A stretch of DNA of 51,473 nt, from the NCBI GenBank assembly GCA_001769035.1, contig MENF01000104.1:1-51473 (forward strand), given 5' to 3'. Below are positions 3,477-44,817 of the stretch, piece by piece. The stretch is from Bacteroidetes bacterium GWA2_32_17. GTDB taxonomy: Bacteria > Bacteroidota > Bacteroidia > Bacteroidales > GWA2-32-17. Positions within the stretch are counted from its first letter, which is position 1; every line of letters starts with the position of its first letter. Under the pieces are notes generated by a model. It searched no databases and had not been told where the DNA came from. It saw only the letters and a list, made by a program, of their open reading frames with translations. Both the position numbers and the translations under genes were made by a program.

Positions 3477-3690
3477 ATCATAAAAATTATCTCGCAAAGG
3501 CGCAATGTACGCAATGAAAATAAAAATCTGCTCTCTATCGGATGAAAACGATAACTAATGAGAAGTTTACAACTTAAATTTAAACTTGCTGTAAGCACGC
3601 AATGAAAAAAATCATTAATGATTTTTTTTAACTTTGCGTGCTTAAAACTTTGCGGGCATTGCGAGCATTGCGTAACATAATATTTGCGGG
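3477..3690. repeat. GCAAAG element, copy 2 (partial)
   Basis: Starts with ATCTCGCAAAGGCGCAATG and ends with GGCATTGCGAGCATTGCGTAAC. From 3589 onward it is nearly identical to copy 1 (CTGTAAGCACGCAATG, then the ATCATTAATGAT palindrome, then AACTTTGCG). The GTAACTA ends are not recognisable, so it looks end-eroded. Confidence 0.65.
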
Positions 3691-3839: not shown

Positions 3840-5105
3840 ATGAACTTACAAAATAAACCATTAATTTTAGTTGTTGACGATACTCCTCAAAACATTCAGG
3901 TACTTGGAAACATTTTATATAATAAAGGATATAATGTTGCTATAGCTTCTTCAGGAGCAGGAGCTCTTCAATCTGTAAAAAATAAAACTCCCGATTTGAT
4001 ATTATTAGACATTCAAATGCCAGAGATGGATGGCTTTGAAGTTTGTGTAATTCTTAAAAGTCAATTCGAAACAAAAGAAATTCCGGTAATATTCTTAACT
4101 GCATCAACCGAAACAGAAAACATTTTGAAAGGTTTTGAAGTTGGAGCTATTGATTTCATTACAAAACCGTTTAATTCAGCCGAACTGTTAGCTCGTATAT
4201 CTACACATATAGAACTAAAAAAATCTAAAGAAAAAATTGAATTTGAAAACGTAAAAATTGAAACATTAAATACTAAACTTCAAAGTACAAACAACAAGCT
4301 CAATGTAGCTTATAATAAAATTAAAGACAGTATTAATTATGCAAAAAGAATTCAGGAAAACTTGTTGCCTGATTTAAGTTTTTTGACTGAAAACGGAATT
4401 GAACATTTTGTAATTTATAAACCAAAAAATATAATTAGCGGCGATTTTTATTTTGCAACTCAAATAACAACAATGGGGCATGACACATTAACAACAAGGG
4501 AGCATGCCCCCTTGTTAATTGTTGCTGTTGCCGATTGTACAGGGCATGGAGTACCAGGTGCTCTTCTTTCGATGTTAGGACATAACTTTCTTTATGAAAT
4601 TGTGAATATTGGAAAAGTTTACGATCCAGCCGAAATTTTAAATAAGCTAAACACTAAATTTCGCAAAATCCTTAAACAGGAAATTACATTATCGCATGAT
4701 GGAATGGATATAGCTATTTGCGTAATTAATACTAAAACTAACATAATAGAGTATGCTGGTGCCAAAAGACCAATTTGTTATTATAACAATGAGCATTTTA
4801 TAGAACTTGTTCCCAATAAATTTTCTATTGGTGGATTAGAAAACAATAATTCTGTTTTTAATAAGCAAATAATTGAACTTAAAAGTGGCAACAAAGTATT
4901 TATGTTTACCGACGGAATAACTGACCAGTTTGACAGTAGTAACAAGAAAAAAATTACCAGAAAAGGATTTGAAAATAAACTTTCTTTATTAGCTAATAAA
5001 CCGCTTAAAACAATTAAAAAAGATTTGAAAGATTATTTAAAAGATTGGCAGGGTAACAATATGCAAACCGATGATATTTTAGTATTTAGCTTTGAAATCT
5101 TATAA
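3840..5105 (+). CDS. Response regulator with SpoIIE-type (PP2C) phosphatase output
   Basis: An N-terminal receiver domain (residues 1-125) has the acidic pair VVDD, the phosphoacceptor Asp57 (LLDIQMP) and the TKPF lysine. A short coiled coil (about 130-165) and the SINYAKRIQENLLP linker lead to a SpoIIE/PP2C-like Ser/Thr phosphatase domain (about 170-421) with KPKNIISGDFYF, DCTGHGVPGALLS, DGMDIAI and FTDGITDQF, all expected for metal binding. It probably dephosphorylates an anti-sigma-factor-antagonist-like partner under control of a histidine kinase. Residues about 212-226 are an unusual insertion encoded by a palindromic repeat (see 4475-4516). The receiver is a close paralogue of that in the 10173 gene. 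It opens a signalling block with the hybrid kinase downstream. Confidence 0.92.
   Translation: MNLQNKPLILVVDDTPQNIQVLGNILYNKGYNVAIASSGAGALQSVKNKTPDLILLDIQMPEMDGFEVCVILKSQFETKEIPVIFLTASTETENILKGFEVGAIDFITKPFNSAELLARISTHIELKKSKEKIEFENVKIETLNTKLQSTNNKLNVAYNKIKDSINYAKRIQENLLPDLSFLTENGIEHFVIYKPKNIISGDFYFATQITTMGHDTLTTREHAPLLIVAVADCTGHGVPGALLSMLGHNFLYEIVNIGKVYDPAEILNKLNTKFRKILKQEITLSHDGMDIAICVINTKTNIIEYAGAKRPICYYNNEHFIELVPNKFSIGGLENNNSVFNKQIIELKSGNKVFMFTDGITDQFDSSNKKKITRKGFENKLSLLANKPLKTIKKDLKDYLKDWQGNNMQTDDILVFSFEIL
4475..4516 (+). repeat. Palindromic repeat inside SpoIIE domain coding sequence, copy 1
   Basis: Positions 4493-4516 are a 24-base palindrome with one mismatched base (left half AACAAGGGAGCA; consensus AACAAGGGGGCA followed by its own complement). 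An additional GGGGCATG at 4475-4482 pairs with CATGCCCC at 4503-4510. In frame it encodes T-R-E-H-A-P-L-L. It sits between the SGDFYFAT strand and the IVAVADCTGHG strand, where relatives normally have a short turn. A second copy lies in another SpoIIE gene at 17365-17415. Confidence 0.85.
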
Positions 5106-9993: not shown

Positions 9994-10140
9994 GACACGT
10001 AATTGCGAGGTACGAAGCAATCTCCACAACTCTACCTCACAATTTAATAATTACAAGTGTAAATTGCTTCAGTCGTTCCTCTTTCGCAATGACGAAAAAT
10101 GGAGTGTCATTGCGAACGAAGTGAAGTAATCTCAAAGAAA
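9994..10140. repeat. GTCATTGCGA-type palindromic repeat
   Basis: AATTGCGAGGTACGAAGCAATCTCC (9999 onward) is followed by CAGTCGTTCCTCTTTCGCAATGAC in opposite orientation, and then GTCATTGCGAACGAAGTGAAG. This word family (TCATTGCGAGGNACGAAGCAATCTC) is a widespread extragenic palindrome in environmental genomes. It lies between the MITE and the REC-kinase gene. Confidence 0.6.
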
Positions 10141-16799: not shown

Positions 16800-17035
16800 T
16801 TACGATTTACGATTTACGATTTAGGATTTAAGATAGTTGCTTGCTCACAGTTCATTGTTCTATGTTCACTGTTCACTGCCCACTGCTGACTTCCGACTGC
16901 TGACTGCCGACTGTGGACTGCCGACTGTTTTATTGCATTTCTATCTATTTCTACTAATTTCTGTTTTTTATTTCAATGTTTTCGTTCATTGTACTTTGTA
17001 CTTAATACTTTGTACTTAATACCTTTTTCATTGTT
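16800..17035. repeat. Degenerate ACGATTT and CACTGCCGACTG arrays
   Basis: ACGATTTACGATTTACGATTT opens the stretch. Runs of CACTGTTCACTGCCCACTGCTGAC, CCGACTGCTGACTGCCGACTG and GTACTTTGTACTTAATACTT follow. Units of 7-10 bases vary, and there are no spacers or coding sense. Its complement is the array at 47980-48110. Confidence 0.6.
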
Positions 17036-20000
17036 TATTGTTTTTAATTTTTAAAGTTTCTTTTCCGAAATAAATTCCTGATAAAATAATATCATCAATT
17101 TGTGGATTTTTTCCACGCCAATCTAAAATCGTATTATTTAAAATTAATTTTTGCTCTTGCATTGACAAACCATTAATTTTTAAAAGTAATTCTTTTAACT
17201 GTTTATATTTGAATTTTTTACCTTTTGGCCCACCAAACTGGTCGGCATAACCATCAGAAAACATGTAAATGGAGTCTCCATTATTTATTTTAACTGTTTG
17301 ACTATTAAATGGTTGCTGTTTAATGTGAACTCCAATTGGCATATTGTCTCCTTTTAGCTCCTCTAAACCTAACAACAAGGGGGCATGCCCTCTTGTTTCA
17401 AAACCTGTTAGGTTTTCTACCTCTTTTAGGTTTTGCCCACCCCTCACAATATAAATTGGATTATTTGCACCTGCAAATTCAATTTCCTGTTTCTCATTAT
17501 CGAAAATAATTAAGCTAATATCCATTCCATCTTTTGCTTCGCCTTCTTTACCAGTTTGTCTTAGTGAAAGTATTACATTTTCGCGAAGTTGGTTTAGCAT
17601 ATTGTTAGCACTAATAGAATCGTTAATACCAATTATTTCATCTAAAAATGCAATCCCCAACATGCTCATAAATGCTCCCGGAACGCCGTGACCTGTACAG
17701 TCGGCAATTGCAAAGTAAGTTTTGTTATTTCGATACGAAATCCAGTAAAAATCGCCACTAACAATATCTCGTGGCTTATATAATAAAAATGATTCAGGGA
17801 AATGTTTTGTGATTTCTTCTTTAGTTGGTAAAACTGCTTCCTGAATGTTTTTTGCATAGTTAATACTATCGGTAATATCTTTATTTTTTTGCTCAACAAT
17901 TTCTTTTTGTTTTACAACTTCTATAGTTCTTTCTTTTACAGTTTTTTCGAGTCGGAATTTATCACGTCGAAGTGATGCTTCTCTATATTTTATGTAAATA
18001 AAAATTAATATTAAAATAATAATTACAAACGAAACAATTGCATACCATGTTAAATACCAAGGTGGACTAATTTCAAATGAAAAAGTAGTAGGAACTTCGT
18101 TCCATATTCCATCATTATTGCAAGCTTTTATTTTAAAAGTGTATTTACCGGGAGGCAGGGTTGGGAAGTCAAATTCGCTTTTCGGCATAGGTGGCGACCA
18201 ATTATCGTCAACACCTTGCATCATGTATTTATAACGTACCTTTTCAGGTGCATTTAAACTATTAGCTGAATATTGAAAAGTTATGTGATTTATGTTATAT
18301 GGTAAAACCAAATCAATTGGTAAACCAGTAATTGTATCTGTTCCTGAACTATATTGTGACCAATCAAATTCCTGAAAATTATATAAAATATTTGTGATAT
18401 AAGTGATTGGTTTAACAGTATTTATTTTATCTAATTCGGGATTATACATAGTGATTCCATCAACTGTACCAAACCAAATTCTTCCTAAACTATCAATATA
18501 ATTTGCATTTCTGTTGCATTCTAAACCTAAAAAACCTTCGTATTTACCATAATGTCTAACTTCTATTTTTTTTGTTGAATAAAAAGTTTTAAGATTTAAT
18601 TTATCTAAACCTTGGTTTGTGCCAATAAAAAGATAATTACTTGTTTTGTCAATTGTTAATGAATAAATATTATCAGATATTAATCCTTTTGATTTATCAA
18701 TTTTTTTAACTTCTTTGTTATTATAATAGTAAATACCTTCTTTAGTAGCTACCCAGTAATTATTATGATTGTCTTGTGTTACAGAGTTTATTTGCTCTTC
18801 TGCTAAAGCTTTATTGTTTTTTATTTGTGTTAATTTTTTACCATTATAATAATAAAGCCCTTGTTGAGTACTAAACCATGTGTGTTTATTGTTGTCATGC
18901 AAAATATGATAAACGGAAATATTGTTAAGTTTTTGTAATTCGGAGTTATTATCAATTATTGAAGTGTCAGAAAAAACATTTACACCAGATAATGTTCCGC
19001 ACCATATATTTCCATAAATATCTTTAGTTAAGCAATTTATACACTTATTTGTTAATTTATTATTAATTACACAATTATATTTCTTATCATTTGCATCATT
19101 TGTAATATGTATAAAACTACTGTCAATAGTATTAAAAATACTTATTCCAGTAATTGTTCCAAACCAAGTTCTGTTTTTATTGTCGTTTACTATTGATAAA
19201 ACCGTATTACTTATTAAATTCTTTTTAATTATTTCAGGTGTTATTTTTTTTTCAATCATTTCTATTGCCTTAAATGATGTAAAGTTGAAAAACCTCAGAT
19301 TTGCATTTTTTTCTCTGAAATAATAAGCTCCCCCTTTAGCACAACCAACCCAAAATTCAAAAGAATTAAATCCTTTTTCAATAGCGTAAACATTATTATT
19401 TAAATTCTGTTGCTCGTTATAATTAATAAATGGTGAAAGAGGAATTTGAATTAATCCGGTTTCAGTACCAACCCAAATATTATTTTCTTTATCAACTAAA
19501 ATTACTCTATATTGAAAACCATTAGTAACATATAGAAGATTAAGTGCCTTATAATTATTTTTAATGTTAACAATTCGTCCAGAATAATTTGTGAAAAGAA
19601 GTTCTCCTGAAGATGATTTGCAAGAAGAAGTATAACTTGTAGGGTTGGGTAAACAATTAACGCTATCGTTTATAAGATTAAGTCCTTTTGATGTTCCAAT
19701 TAAAATATTATTGTTTAAATCTTGATTAATTGTAAACACCCAATTATCTGATAATTTATTAATTGTTGAATATTGCTTAATTATTTTACCAGATACTTTA
19801 AAAGCACCTTGAGTTTTAGTGCCAAACCACATATTGTTTTTACTATCTTCAAAAATTGTGAAAATATTTTGTTTATCTAAATTTGATGATGTTGTATATA
19901 TTTCAAATTTGTTTTTATTTAAAAAAGCTAATCCTTTACCAGTTCCTGCCCAAATTTTTCCTGCATGGTCTTCAAAAACTTTCCAAACTGTATTATCAGG

Positions 20001-20375
20001 TAACCCATTATCAATTGTGTAATTTGTTATTTTTTTGCCTTCAATTTTTGAAACTCCTTTATCTGTGCCAATCCACATTGTGCCTTTTCTATCCTGAATA
20101 ATTGAATAAACGCTTTTTCCAACTAATCCATTCTCTTTTGAAATGTTTTTAAAACTAACTCCATTATAAATATTTATTCCGCCTCCAATTGTTCCAATCC
20201 ATAAGTCACCTTTTTTGTCTTGAAATAAAGAAAAAATGCTTGAAGTTGATAGTCCATGCTCTACCGTGTAAAGCCGATAATAAAAATTGTGAAATTTTGG
20301 GTTCTGCGCTTTTAGTTTAGTTGTGAAAAATACAAAAAATGGAATAAAAAATAATATTGAAAACTTTAACTTCAT
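17028..20375 (-). CDS. Two-component-regulator propeller protein with SpoIIE phosphatase output
   Basis: 1115 aa. Signal peptide 1-23 (ending KLKAQ). Periplasmic Reg_prop beta-propellers at about 25-680, with repeats of the form D(x)KGxxWIGTxxG (QDKKGDLWIGTIGGG, QDRKGTMWIGTDKG, EDHAGKIWAGTGKG and others). Y_Y_Y domain (about 697-765; APEKVRYKYMMQGVDDNW). One transmembrane helix (about 772-795), then a coiled coil (795-850) with SINYAKNIQEAVLP and a cytoplasmic SpoIIE/PP2C domain (about 860-1110; SGDFYW, DCTGHGVPGAFMS, DGMDISL, FSDGYADQFGG). The usual histidine kinase output is thus replaced by a phosphatase, giving a one-component transmembrane phosphatase. The ligand is unknown. Residues about 987-1003 come from a palindromic repeat insertion. 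Confidence 0.92.
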   Translation of the reverse strand: MKLKFSILFFIPFFVFFTTKLKAQNPKFHNFYYRLYTVEHGLSTSSIFSLFQDKKGDLWIGTIGGGINIYNGVSFKNISKENGLVGKSVYSIIQDRKGTMWIGTDKGVSKIEGKKITNYTIDNGLPDNTVWKVFEDHAGKIWAGTGKGLAFLNKNKFEIYTTSSNLDKQNIFTIFEDSKNNMWFGTKTQGAFKVSGKIIKQYSTINKLSDNWVFTINQDLNNNILIGTSKGLNLINDSVNCLPNPTSYTSSCKSSSGELLFTNYSGRIVNIKNNYKALNLLYVTNGFQYRVILVDKENNIWVGTETGLIQIPLSPFINYNEQQNLNNNVYAIEKGFNSFEFWVGCAKGGAYYFREKNANLRFFNFTSFKAIEMIEKKITPEIIKKNLISNTVLSIVNDNKNRTWFGTITGISIFNTIDSSFIHITNDANDKKYNCVINNKLTNKCINCLTKDIYGNIWCGTLSGVNVFSDTSIIDNNSELQKLNNISVYHILHDNNKHTWFSTQQGLYYYNGKKLTQIKNNKALAEEQINSVTQDNHNNYWVATKEGIYYYNNKEVKKIDKSKGLISDNIYSLTIDKTSNYLFIGTNQGLDKLNLKTFYSTKKIEVRHYGKYEGFLGLECNRNANYIDSLGRIWFGTVDGITMYNPELDKINTVKPITYITNILYNFQEFDWSQYSSGTDTITGLPIDLVLPYNINHITFQYSANSLNAPEKVRYKYMMQGVDDNWSPPMPKSEFDFPTLPPGKYTFKIKACNNDGIWNEVPTTFSFEISPPWYLTWYAIVSFVIIILILIFIYIKYREASLRRDKFRLEKTVKERTIEVVKQKEIVEQKNKDITDSINYAKNIQEAVLPTKEEITKHFPESFLLYKPRDIVSGDFYWISYRNNKTYFAIADCTGHGVPGAFMSMLGIAFLDEIIGINDSISANNMLNQLRENVILSLRQTGKEGEAKDGMDISLIIFDNEKQEIEFAGANNPIYIVRGGQNLKEVENLTGFETRGHAPLLLGLEELKGDNMPIGVHIKQQPFNSQTVKINNGDSIYMFSDGYADQFGGPKGKKFKYKQLKELLLKINGLSMQEQKLILNNTILDWRGKNPQIDDIILSGIYFGKETLKIKNNKQ
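17365..17415 (-). repeat. Palindromic repeat inside SpoIIE domain coding sequence, copy 2
   Basis: Nested palindrome of exactly 51 bases (17 codons). Outer arms AAACCTAACA (17365-17374) and TGTTAGGTTT (17406-17415) are perfect. The inner 24-base palindrome (17374-17397) has one mismatch and matches that at 4493-4516. On the coding strand it gives NLTGFETRGHAPLLLGL in the loop before KGDNMPIG. The codon phase of the inner palindrome is the same as in the other gene. Confidence 0.85.
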
Positions 20376-44060: not shown

Positions 44061-44817
44061 TAAAACAGATACGGTATCAGAGTTTCATAAAACTAGAAAA
44101 GGAGAAAGGCTGGCGCCTAATTCCTTTCCCTAACCTAAACATAGATTCCTATGAATCTTGAAAGCCGTACAAATATAATACTGTATTTTTCATTTTCCAA
44201 ATTTATTTTGTTAAAGTTACATAAACGGCTAATGTTTTTATATAAAATTAGTTGTGCAATTTACAACATTAATTTTAAAAAACTAAAATAATTTATGTAA
44301 CTATTCAGTATAAGAATTATCACGCAAAGGCGCAGGGAACGCAAAGAAAATAGAAAAAGAAAATATAGAAAACGCTCAAAATGATGAAATACGAAATAGA
44401 ATTGTTTATAGTATTTACAAATTGTTAGTTCGCAAAGAAAAAAATCATTAATGATTTTTTTAAAACCTTGCGGGCTTAAAACTTTGCGGGCATTGCGTCT
44501 TTGCGAGAATAATATTTGCGAGAAATATGGTGCGAGTTAAACGAAAAATCATATTAACTTTGACACTGATTAGTAACTAATTTATTAACAATTATTTTTA
44601 TTTGCATTTGCAGAGAATATGGTTTTATTGTCAAATGGTTAAATTGCTATATTGTTGTATGACAATCATTAACTATATAGGTAAAAATTAAAATAACAAT
44701 TTAACAATTTAACCATTTAATTATAATTTCAGCAATTTTTAATTTCCCAAATTTTTAAATTTGCAAATTCCTAAAAAATCATGTAGGTTTGTTCGTTGAT
44801 TTAAGAAAATATAAATT
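44061..44817. repeat. Gap holding GCAAAG element copy 4 and AATTTAACAATTT words
   Basis: The element spans 44297-44577, with ends GTAACTATTCAG and CTGATTAGTAAC. It contains CACGCAAAGGCGCAGGGAACGC, the ATCATTAATGAT palindrome and GGGCATTGCGTCTTTGCGAG, and lacks the nested mini-element. Positions 44620-44770 are TTTAACCATTT/CAATTTAACAATTT degenerate units. No gene. Confidence 0.65.
44760..44791 (+). promoter_or_regulatory. Consensus promoter for the TerB-ABC transporter
   Basis: TTTG (44760-44763), 20 bases, TAGGTTTG (44784-44791), an exact match to both boxes. The expected start is near 44798, leaving a leader of about 20 bases to the ATG at 44818. Confidence 0.6.

Follow-up and report, generated by a model that had tools for sequence, protein, structure and literature searches.

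An in-frame palindromic repeat in the turns of SpoIIE-type phosphatases of a Bacteroidota genome, most likely a captured REP-like element multiplied between paralogues

The window, that is, the whole 51,473-nucleotide stretch of DNA analysed here from Bacteroidetes bacterium GWA2_32_17 (genome G000), contains two genes in which a short palindrome lies in frame within a SpoIIE-type phosphatase domain. The first (3840-5105, + strand) encodes a 421-amino-acid response regulator with a C-terminal SpoIIE/PP2C phosphatase domain, as judged from matches to PF00072 and PF07228. The initial annotation had described a near-perfect 24-base palindrome inside this frame, and we confirmed it at 4493-4516 (palindromes are given without strand): the copy, AACAAGGGAGCATGCCCCCTTGTT, has one mismatch to AACAAGGGGGCATGCCCCCTTGTT, encodes T-R-E-H-A-P-L-L and is flanked by GDFYFATQ.. 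and IVAVADCTGHG. Since the stretch originally marked also overlaps a degraded copy at 4469-4492 (AACAATGGGGCATGACACATTAAC, in frame as TMGHDTLT, read off the sequence), the site is a head-to-tail pair. The copy reported in another gene was also found, at 17374-17397 (AACAAGGGGGCATGCCCTCTTGTT, one mismatch to AACAAGGGGGCATGCCCCCTTGTT), and its host is likewise a SpoIIE gene: a large sensor of 1115 amino acids (17028-20375, - strand) with the SpoIIE domain at its C terminus, in which the palindrome reads TRGHAPLL on the - strand. Here the 24-bp palindrome is nested midway in a second palindrome, of the AACCTAACAGGTTTTGAAAACCTGTTAGGTT family, whose arms lie at 17366-17373 and 17400-17414.

These were the only two window matches to AACAAGGGGGCATGCCCCCTTGTT at up to three mismatches, and 100 shuffled windows gave a mean of 0.00. 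As originally stated, the consensus is free of stops in all three frames (NKGACPLV, TRGHAPL and QGGMPPC, read directly). Members of the family share the arms ACAAGG..CCTTGT around a variable centre, which is GGGCATGCCC in these SpoIIE copies. AlphaFold2 runs on both window domains gave a mean pLDDT of 55.6, too low to lean on; in this low-confidence model, residues 55-67 (most of the insert) are coil between strands 47-54 and 68-76. A profile built from 64 domains matched the solved phosphatase 6k4e (E 2e-60).

RNA folding of the window copy was modestly better than that of shuffles (z -2.0), and on this weak signal we rejected an RNA hairpin as the main point of the site. We also rejected a known RNA: within 4200-4800, no Rfam family over the palindrome reached the cut-off, and the one match nearby, to a CRISPR repeat, was sub-threshold and did not cover the palindrome. 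Other repeats occur elsewhere in the window. The AT palindrome AAAAAAATCATTAATGATTTTTTT has three exact copies (2267-2290, 3605-3628 and 44438-44461), of which that at 3605 sits inside a larger hairpin with arms at 3592-3611 and 3625-3644. An inverted repeat at 10080-10119, TCTTTCGCAATGAC..GTCATTGCGAACGA, resembles the widespread CGTCATTGCGA-type repeat.

Genome-wide, the 24-bp pattern occurred at 21 places in G000 and the 20-bp core CAAGGGGGCWWGCCCCCTTG, at up to three mismatches, at 26; reversed-pattern controls gave 0 for each. The initial annotation had treated an absence of further copies as fatal to its reading, and had proposed counting genic against intergenic copies and their codon phases. 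Further copies do exist, but its two-gene scope was too narrow. PF07228/SpoIIE-type phosphatase genes account for 22 of the 26 places; these copies are all read in a single frame (TRGHAPLL and variants), within open frames without stops. The remaining four are one inside a restriction gene (C74:3410) and three between genes (C143:16211, C159:21590 and C187:39964), a 104-amino-acid ORF across the C143 copy appearing spurious. An exact search with the arms only returned 15 places, two of them new: C183:2238, which is intergenic, and C219:7341, inside a restriction gene. This is a real, dispersed, protein-coding palindrome.

In G000, PF07228 gave 50 matches in 47 genes, three of which are split in two. 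All SpoIIE copies of the palindrome lie at one of two constant positions: turn A, between SGDFYW and ADCTGHG, or turn B, between NNPLYIVR and KGDKMPI. Among the 44 G000 rows (L022, L049 and L062, where the motif pattern missed and whose loci hold no core at up to three mismatches, were left out), turn A is occupied in 15, the window's response-regulator gene (L029) included, and empty in 29. These calls include two degraded copies, in L040 and L064, made by eye because they are too degraded for the 26-place count. Turn B is occupied in four genes (L040, L044, L046 and the window's 17-kb gene), and 17 SpoIIE genes hold the palindrome in one turn or the other; in the tree and identity counts below, carriers are the 15 genes with turn A occupied. 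Compared to the usual 24 bp, carrier turns are longer by 9, 12, 15, 33 or 39 bp. Seven genes contain tandem doublets with an identical linker, and a variant changed in both arms, AACAATGGGGCATGCCCCATTGTT, is found in L067 and, with further changes, in L040. The nesting within AACCTAACAGGTTTTGAAAACCTGTTAGGTT in turn B of the window gene recurs in L044 and L046, while unsplit AACCTAACAGGTTTTGAAAACCTGTTAGGTT is present in two other SpoIIE genes, L035 and L056; the AACCTAACAGGTTTTGAAAACCTGTTAGGTT palindrome occurred in all four genomes searched, at 3-6 places each.

Several other repeats were seen in G000. In five G000 SpoIIE genes (L038, L057, L061, L063 and L067), turn B holds a longer imperfect repeat such as SSMQSAVSNEMHKLPTAAASCQL, in DNA rich in GCAGT and ACTGCC. 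L024 and L063 have a third variable stretch, before FILFKPKD and upstream of the phosphatase motif, with the repeat-like inserts LSPALFKGEGINHSLWGELGGA and LSLTLSKGEGKSPSLWGGLDGA. On C183, L235 (from about 1660 on) is a CRISPR-array-like repeated stretch, GTTGTAATCTCCTTTCAAATAGAT.GTATGCACACGC, beside the intergenic ACAAGGGGATTAATCCCCTTGT.

The palindrome was absent from the sampled congeners. At up to three mismatches, four congener genomes (three rated 100% complete, G002 74%) held 0 copies, and turn A was without it in all 59 sampled congener rows, which represent part of those genomes' PF07228 genes. A segment conserved across orthologues, which the initial annotation had named as the observation that would speak against an insertion, was not what we found: congener relatives of carriers lack TRGHAPLL. 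For the window gene itself, no secure orthologue turned up. Its best congener match, in G003 (51% identity including the REC domain), has the plain turn GDFYWFKNNKNTLYLAAADCTGHG; since the gene tree does not pair the window gene (L029) with this match, the G003 gene is no secure orthologue.

We built the tree from 96 domain rows with the turns removed; 7 of 103 rows, including carriers L048 and L064, could not be trimmed, the bootstrap had not settled and L029 is on a long branch. On a FastTree of all 96 rows, the 13 carriers need 10 label changes, compared with a mean of 12.4 and a minimum of 9 in 300 shuffles, which points to many separate gains or losses rather than one inherited insert. 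Starred branches of the bootstrapped tree force at least four label changes among G000 rows alone. In that tree, strong support joins two carriers to empty congener genes: L040 to L105_G004 (100/96) and L053 to L126_G004_3 (100/99). Carriers are scattered nearly as widely as shuffled labels, and an ancestral insert of the SpoIIE family followed by many losses, or plain gene duplication, is very improbable. Some carriers are sisters, as either would predict (L036 and L067, 99/94; L035 and L063, 96/54). However, the 59 congener rows and the four congener genomes are empty, several carriers adjoin empty congener genes, and the palindrome has changed little between carriers whose flanks differ at about half of positions. 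This alternative, already disfavoured, needs near-complete loss in every sister species.

The congeners fill the same turns with other DNA. A TCATTCTGAACG..TGAAGAA repeat occurs in turn B at 4 places in G003, 7 in G004 and 1 in G001, all 12 at SpoIIE loci, and in G000 at one SpoIIE place and one intergenic place. In G001, turn B additionally harbours AAAGTTGAAAGT..ACTTTCAACTTT-like inserts, and L086 and L103 have a turn A with long inserts. Thus, which repeats the turns of this expanded SpoIIE family collect differs between species. These data bear on the idea that the insert is kept for a function, with an mRNA or DNA hairpin or the TRGHAPLL loop regulating the genes. The common frame of the SpoIIE copies fits such a role, as does the variant with changes in both arms (L067 and, with further changes, L040), but the folding signal only modestly above shuffles and the lack of an Rfam family at cut-off over the window copy do not. 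In other species, turn B holds repeats unrelated to this one, a pattern that suggests tolerance rather than one function, and we regard selection for such a role as quite unlikely.

How the palindrome spread can be read from the DNA beside it. We determined flank identity for 15 carriers and 27 non-carriers in G000 (42 G000 and 53 congener rows were used). Over the 9 bp after GDFYW, carriers were 0.875 identical to one another and 0.362 identical to non-carriers; over the 15 bp before the AD(C) motif, the values were 0.839 and 0.575. Further out, 15-60 bp before the motif, identity was at baseline (0.529 between carriers, 0.524 between carriers and non-carriers). The host flanks common to carriers are ACTCAA..TTAATTGTTGC. 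Because carriers were also more alike 60-120 bp after the AD(C) start (0.602 versus 0.516), part of the flank likeness reflects kinship, and since LLIVAVA-like strands are also found in non-carriers, convergence may add to it. No local excess appeared among close congener relatives that lack the palindrome, picked by hand as a control: their identity was 0.67 and 0.654 next to the turn, compared with 0.691 downstream. Identity profiles in successive intervals for five carriers, each against its nearest congener gene, mostly agreed, with noise in single intervals.

If a bare palindrome had jumped each time, the adjacent host codons should track the gene tree, and those of the carriers do not. 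The short flanks that carriers share make short-tract gene conversion the simplest reading; on these alignments, paralogues probably acquired the loop patch from one another in short conversion tracts. Repeated independent insertion of a site-preferring, mobile REP-like element, without conversion, could also scatter carriers over the tree, place the palindrome at two different turns and reach several restriction-gene sites (described below) in two reading frames. We consider it unlikely, since carriers share flanking codons outside the palindrome, all SpoIIE copies are in the same phase and seven genes show the tandem doublet with an identical linker.

We think there is a good chance that a REP-like element entered a SpoIIE turn in frame and was then copied among paralogues by short conversion tracts. 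Under this model, a short dispersed palindromic DNA element would have entered a SpoIIE-type phosphatase gene in frame at an inter-strand turn; the eight residues that it adds there (TRGHAPLL) would be tolerated and perhaps near-neutral. The palindrome would then have been copied into many paralogues (about ten gains or losses on the tree) through short tracts anchored in the conserved SGDFYW and ADCTGHG DNA. Neither a target-site duplication nor a dated insertion was seen in these comparisons, and as G000 has few copies outside coding DNA (3 of 26, plus that on C183), support for the entry step is indirect. The 15 occupied and 29 empty paralogous sites in one genome, together with homologous empty sites in four congeners, allow gain, copying and tolerance to be traced site by site.

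Copies in other genomes point to a different class of host. An exact scan of an 84,980-species collection returned 32 stretches with 34 copies; by title, 16 stretches are from Bacteroidota, 11 from Ignavibacteria and 5 from Proteobacteria MAGs. An ORF of at least 80 amino acids covers 10 of the 34 copies and none covers the other 24, and the flanks of exact copies are mostly unrelated. When the four longest ORFs were compared to Pfam, L144, L150 and L156 proved to be restriction-modification genes (Eco57I, N6_Mtase or TaqI_C), and L163 had no Pfam family. Across the phylum, 5 of 395 genomes had a match at up to two mismatches, with more than one match in G000 only. We set aside the match in G014 as probable chance, as its ORF peptide, SREYAPLFAK, resembles ordinary coding sequence. 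Phage or plasmid carriage was rejected on searches of IMG/VR and plasmids: one viral contig held the 20-bp core, under the start of a 121-amino-acid ORF.

In G025, a genome of the same order, three Eco57I genes (L072, L076, which L069 overlaps, and L078) contain the palindrome in frame at several sites, and comparison of ENLVKNNPQYDKLTLF (L076) with ENIVKNNFARGHAPLYVDKLTLF (L078) looks like an in-frame gain. In L074, also from G025, the palindrome is read in another phase (NNKGACSLVV). The SpoIIE copies keep to one frame. The family as a whole is read in two phases out of three, as TRGHAPL and as NKGxxPLV, and this speaks for an element of DNA rather than a peptide motif.

Some of these restriction genes contain a transposase domain. 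The Eco57I-type proteins of C74 and C219 (G000), L076 (G025) and L144 carry an HUH transposase domain (PF01797, Y1_Tnp) just before GGFD[VI]VxGNPP; since the Eco57I genes L072 and L078 of G025 lack it at this place, the domain is optional. All four aligned domains retain an HUH motif, DH[ILM]H, and a Tyr motif, Y[IV]xxNR. Against solved transposases, the best match of the Y1 profile was 2xo6 (E 2.4e-4), with a chain labelled ISHp608 transposase at 0.053. In all four genes the palindrome (an array in C74) lies inside the Y1 domain, between HUH and Tyr; as this set includes genes found through the palindrome, it is no test of a link between the two.

A profile of the domain was therefore compared with 395 phylum genomes and matched six, G000 among them. 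In four of the other five, exact ACAAGG..CCTTGT occurs in that gene and nowhere else in the genome (two copies in G060 and one each in G066, G086 and G094, with centres TTTAAA and TTGCAA); G236 had no match to the pattern. One of the two G060 copies is between HUH and Tyr, and those of G066, G086 and G094 follow the Tyr motif. These last three genomes share one family and one palindrome and count as one event. The pattern was found in none of 13 control genomes of the same genera without a Y1 profile match, and in none of three congeners whose Y1 matches are all in open frames of at most 184 amino acids. G035, which is outside the Y1 comparison, has four pattern matches. Relatives of the Y1 insert were not confirmed in IMG/VR by a pattern-based search in which 31 stretches were tried, nor found in plasmids.

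We propose that ACAAGG..CCTTGT is the REP-like partner of the Eco57I-lodged Y1 domain, which might mobilise it, and the Y1-domain restriction genes may be the source of the palindrome. A fuller version, which we offer tentatively and hold at somewhat under an even chance, is that the palindrome is the REP of a so far undescribed system in which an HUH (Y1) domain lodged in an Eco57I gene seeds in-frame palindromes, their centre specific to the lineage, into its host, related restriction genes and, in the present lineage, SpoIIE genes, with conversion among 47 paralogues multiplying them. If so, protein-coding palindromes would have a reservoir in the turns of an expanded paralogue family, with turnover from one species to the next. 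The Y1 domain inside restriction enzymes is a testable candidate for an enzyme that moves the palindrome.

Protein-coding palindromes are best known from Rickettsia, and their source and way of spread are little understood; the Rickettsia palindromic elements (RPEs) were reportedly described by Ogata et al. in 2000 and 2002. RPEs are given a length of about 150 bp and occupy metabolic genes that are unrelated (PMC10969869, PMC2996958). The initial annotation likened the present element to RPEs, and part of that comparison stands: this is dispersed, in-frame palindromic DNA in signalling genes that works in an RPE-like way, and RPEs also form several families per genome and are tolerated by host proteins (PMC10969869, PMC2996958). 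The rest does not. The palindrome is 24 bp rather than about 150 bp. In G000, free invasion of unrelated genes is not its main mode: a single paralogous family, at two homologous turns and with flanking host codons in common, accounts for 22 of the 26 copies. PARCEL elements are also palindromic DNA encoding a repeated peptide, but form 25-residue tandem domains, whereas here 8-residue inserts occupy enzyme turns (PMC2996958).

Outside the SpoIIE family, the coding hosts that could be recognised belong to restriction-modification systems, and several contain an HUH domain; this points to REP/TnpA-REP systems as the nearer relatives. Like REPs, which are palindromes of 20-40 bp in many copies, this one is 24 bp at 26 places. 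Unlike them, it has no GT[AG]G or CGTC tetranucleotide at the foot (AACAAGG..CCTTGTT, with no consistent end tag by eye), and in G000 it is not mostly extragenic, although the 24 of 34 copies in other genomes without an ORF of at least 80 amino acids would fit. In TnpA-REP/RAYT subclass 2.4, in-frame REPs, which are short palindromes, are described inside tnpA-REP genes, between HUH and Tyr of the HUH Y1 domain, with the motifs NH[IFV]H, WQ and YIxNNP (PMC6006769). That placement recurs in C74, C219, L076, L144 and one G060 copy; the motifs differ (DH[ILM]H, W[TA]Q and Y[IV]xxNR in the four aligned domains), the GT[AG]G foot is missing and the Y1 domain is in an Eco57I-type restriction-modification gene (compare PMC6006769). 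GTAG/CGTC REPs also occur within ORFs, and one example has them at nearly matching positions of related genes, but these are tetranucleotide-tagged, have other sequences and are predominantly intergenic (PMC3733652).

Palindromes of this kind, as RPEs and in-ORF REPs, are already known. What appears to be new, within the open-access literature searched, is the family of host genes, the way in which the palindrome spreads and its Y1 partner in restriction genes. In that literature, we found nothing on Eco57I with Y1_Tnp, nothing on this link for REP/RAYT with restriction-modification, in-frame and HUH, and, for GGGGGCATGCCCCC, TRGHAPL and RGHAPLL, nothing but unrelated mitochondrial work. Among the matches listed, no title was pertinent for Eco57I with transposase, REP or IS200, or for SpoIIE with palindromic repeats and paralogues. 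Overall, the most likely account is that phosphatase turns captured a REP-like element, which conversion between paralogues then multiplied.

Other Y1 genes of G000 also have palindromes nearby. L183 (C6:1-2300) consists of two identical tandem Y1 transposase genes near a contig end, possibly an assembly artefact, flanked by CCACGACCT..AGGTCGTGG palindromes in a REP-like layout. The Y1 match L186 (C71) has palindromes with a CAGTT..AACTG core nearby, three times, and CAACGCCATAAATGGCGTTG-like palindromes lie near the Y1 matches L187 (C214) and L191 (C75).
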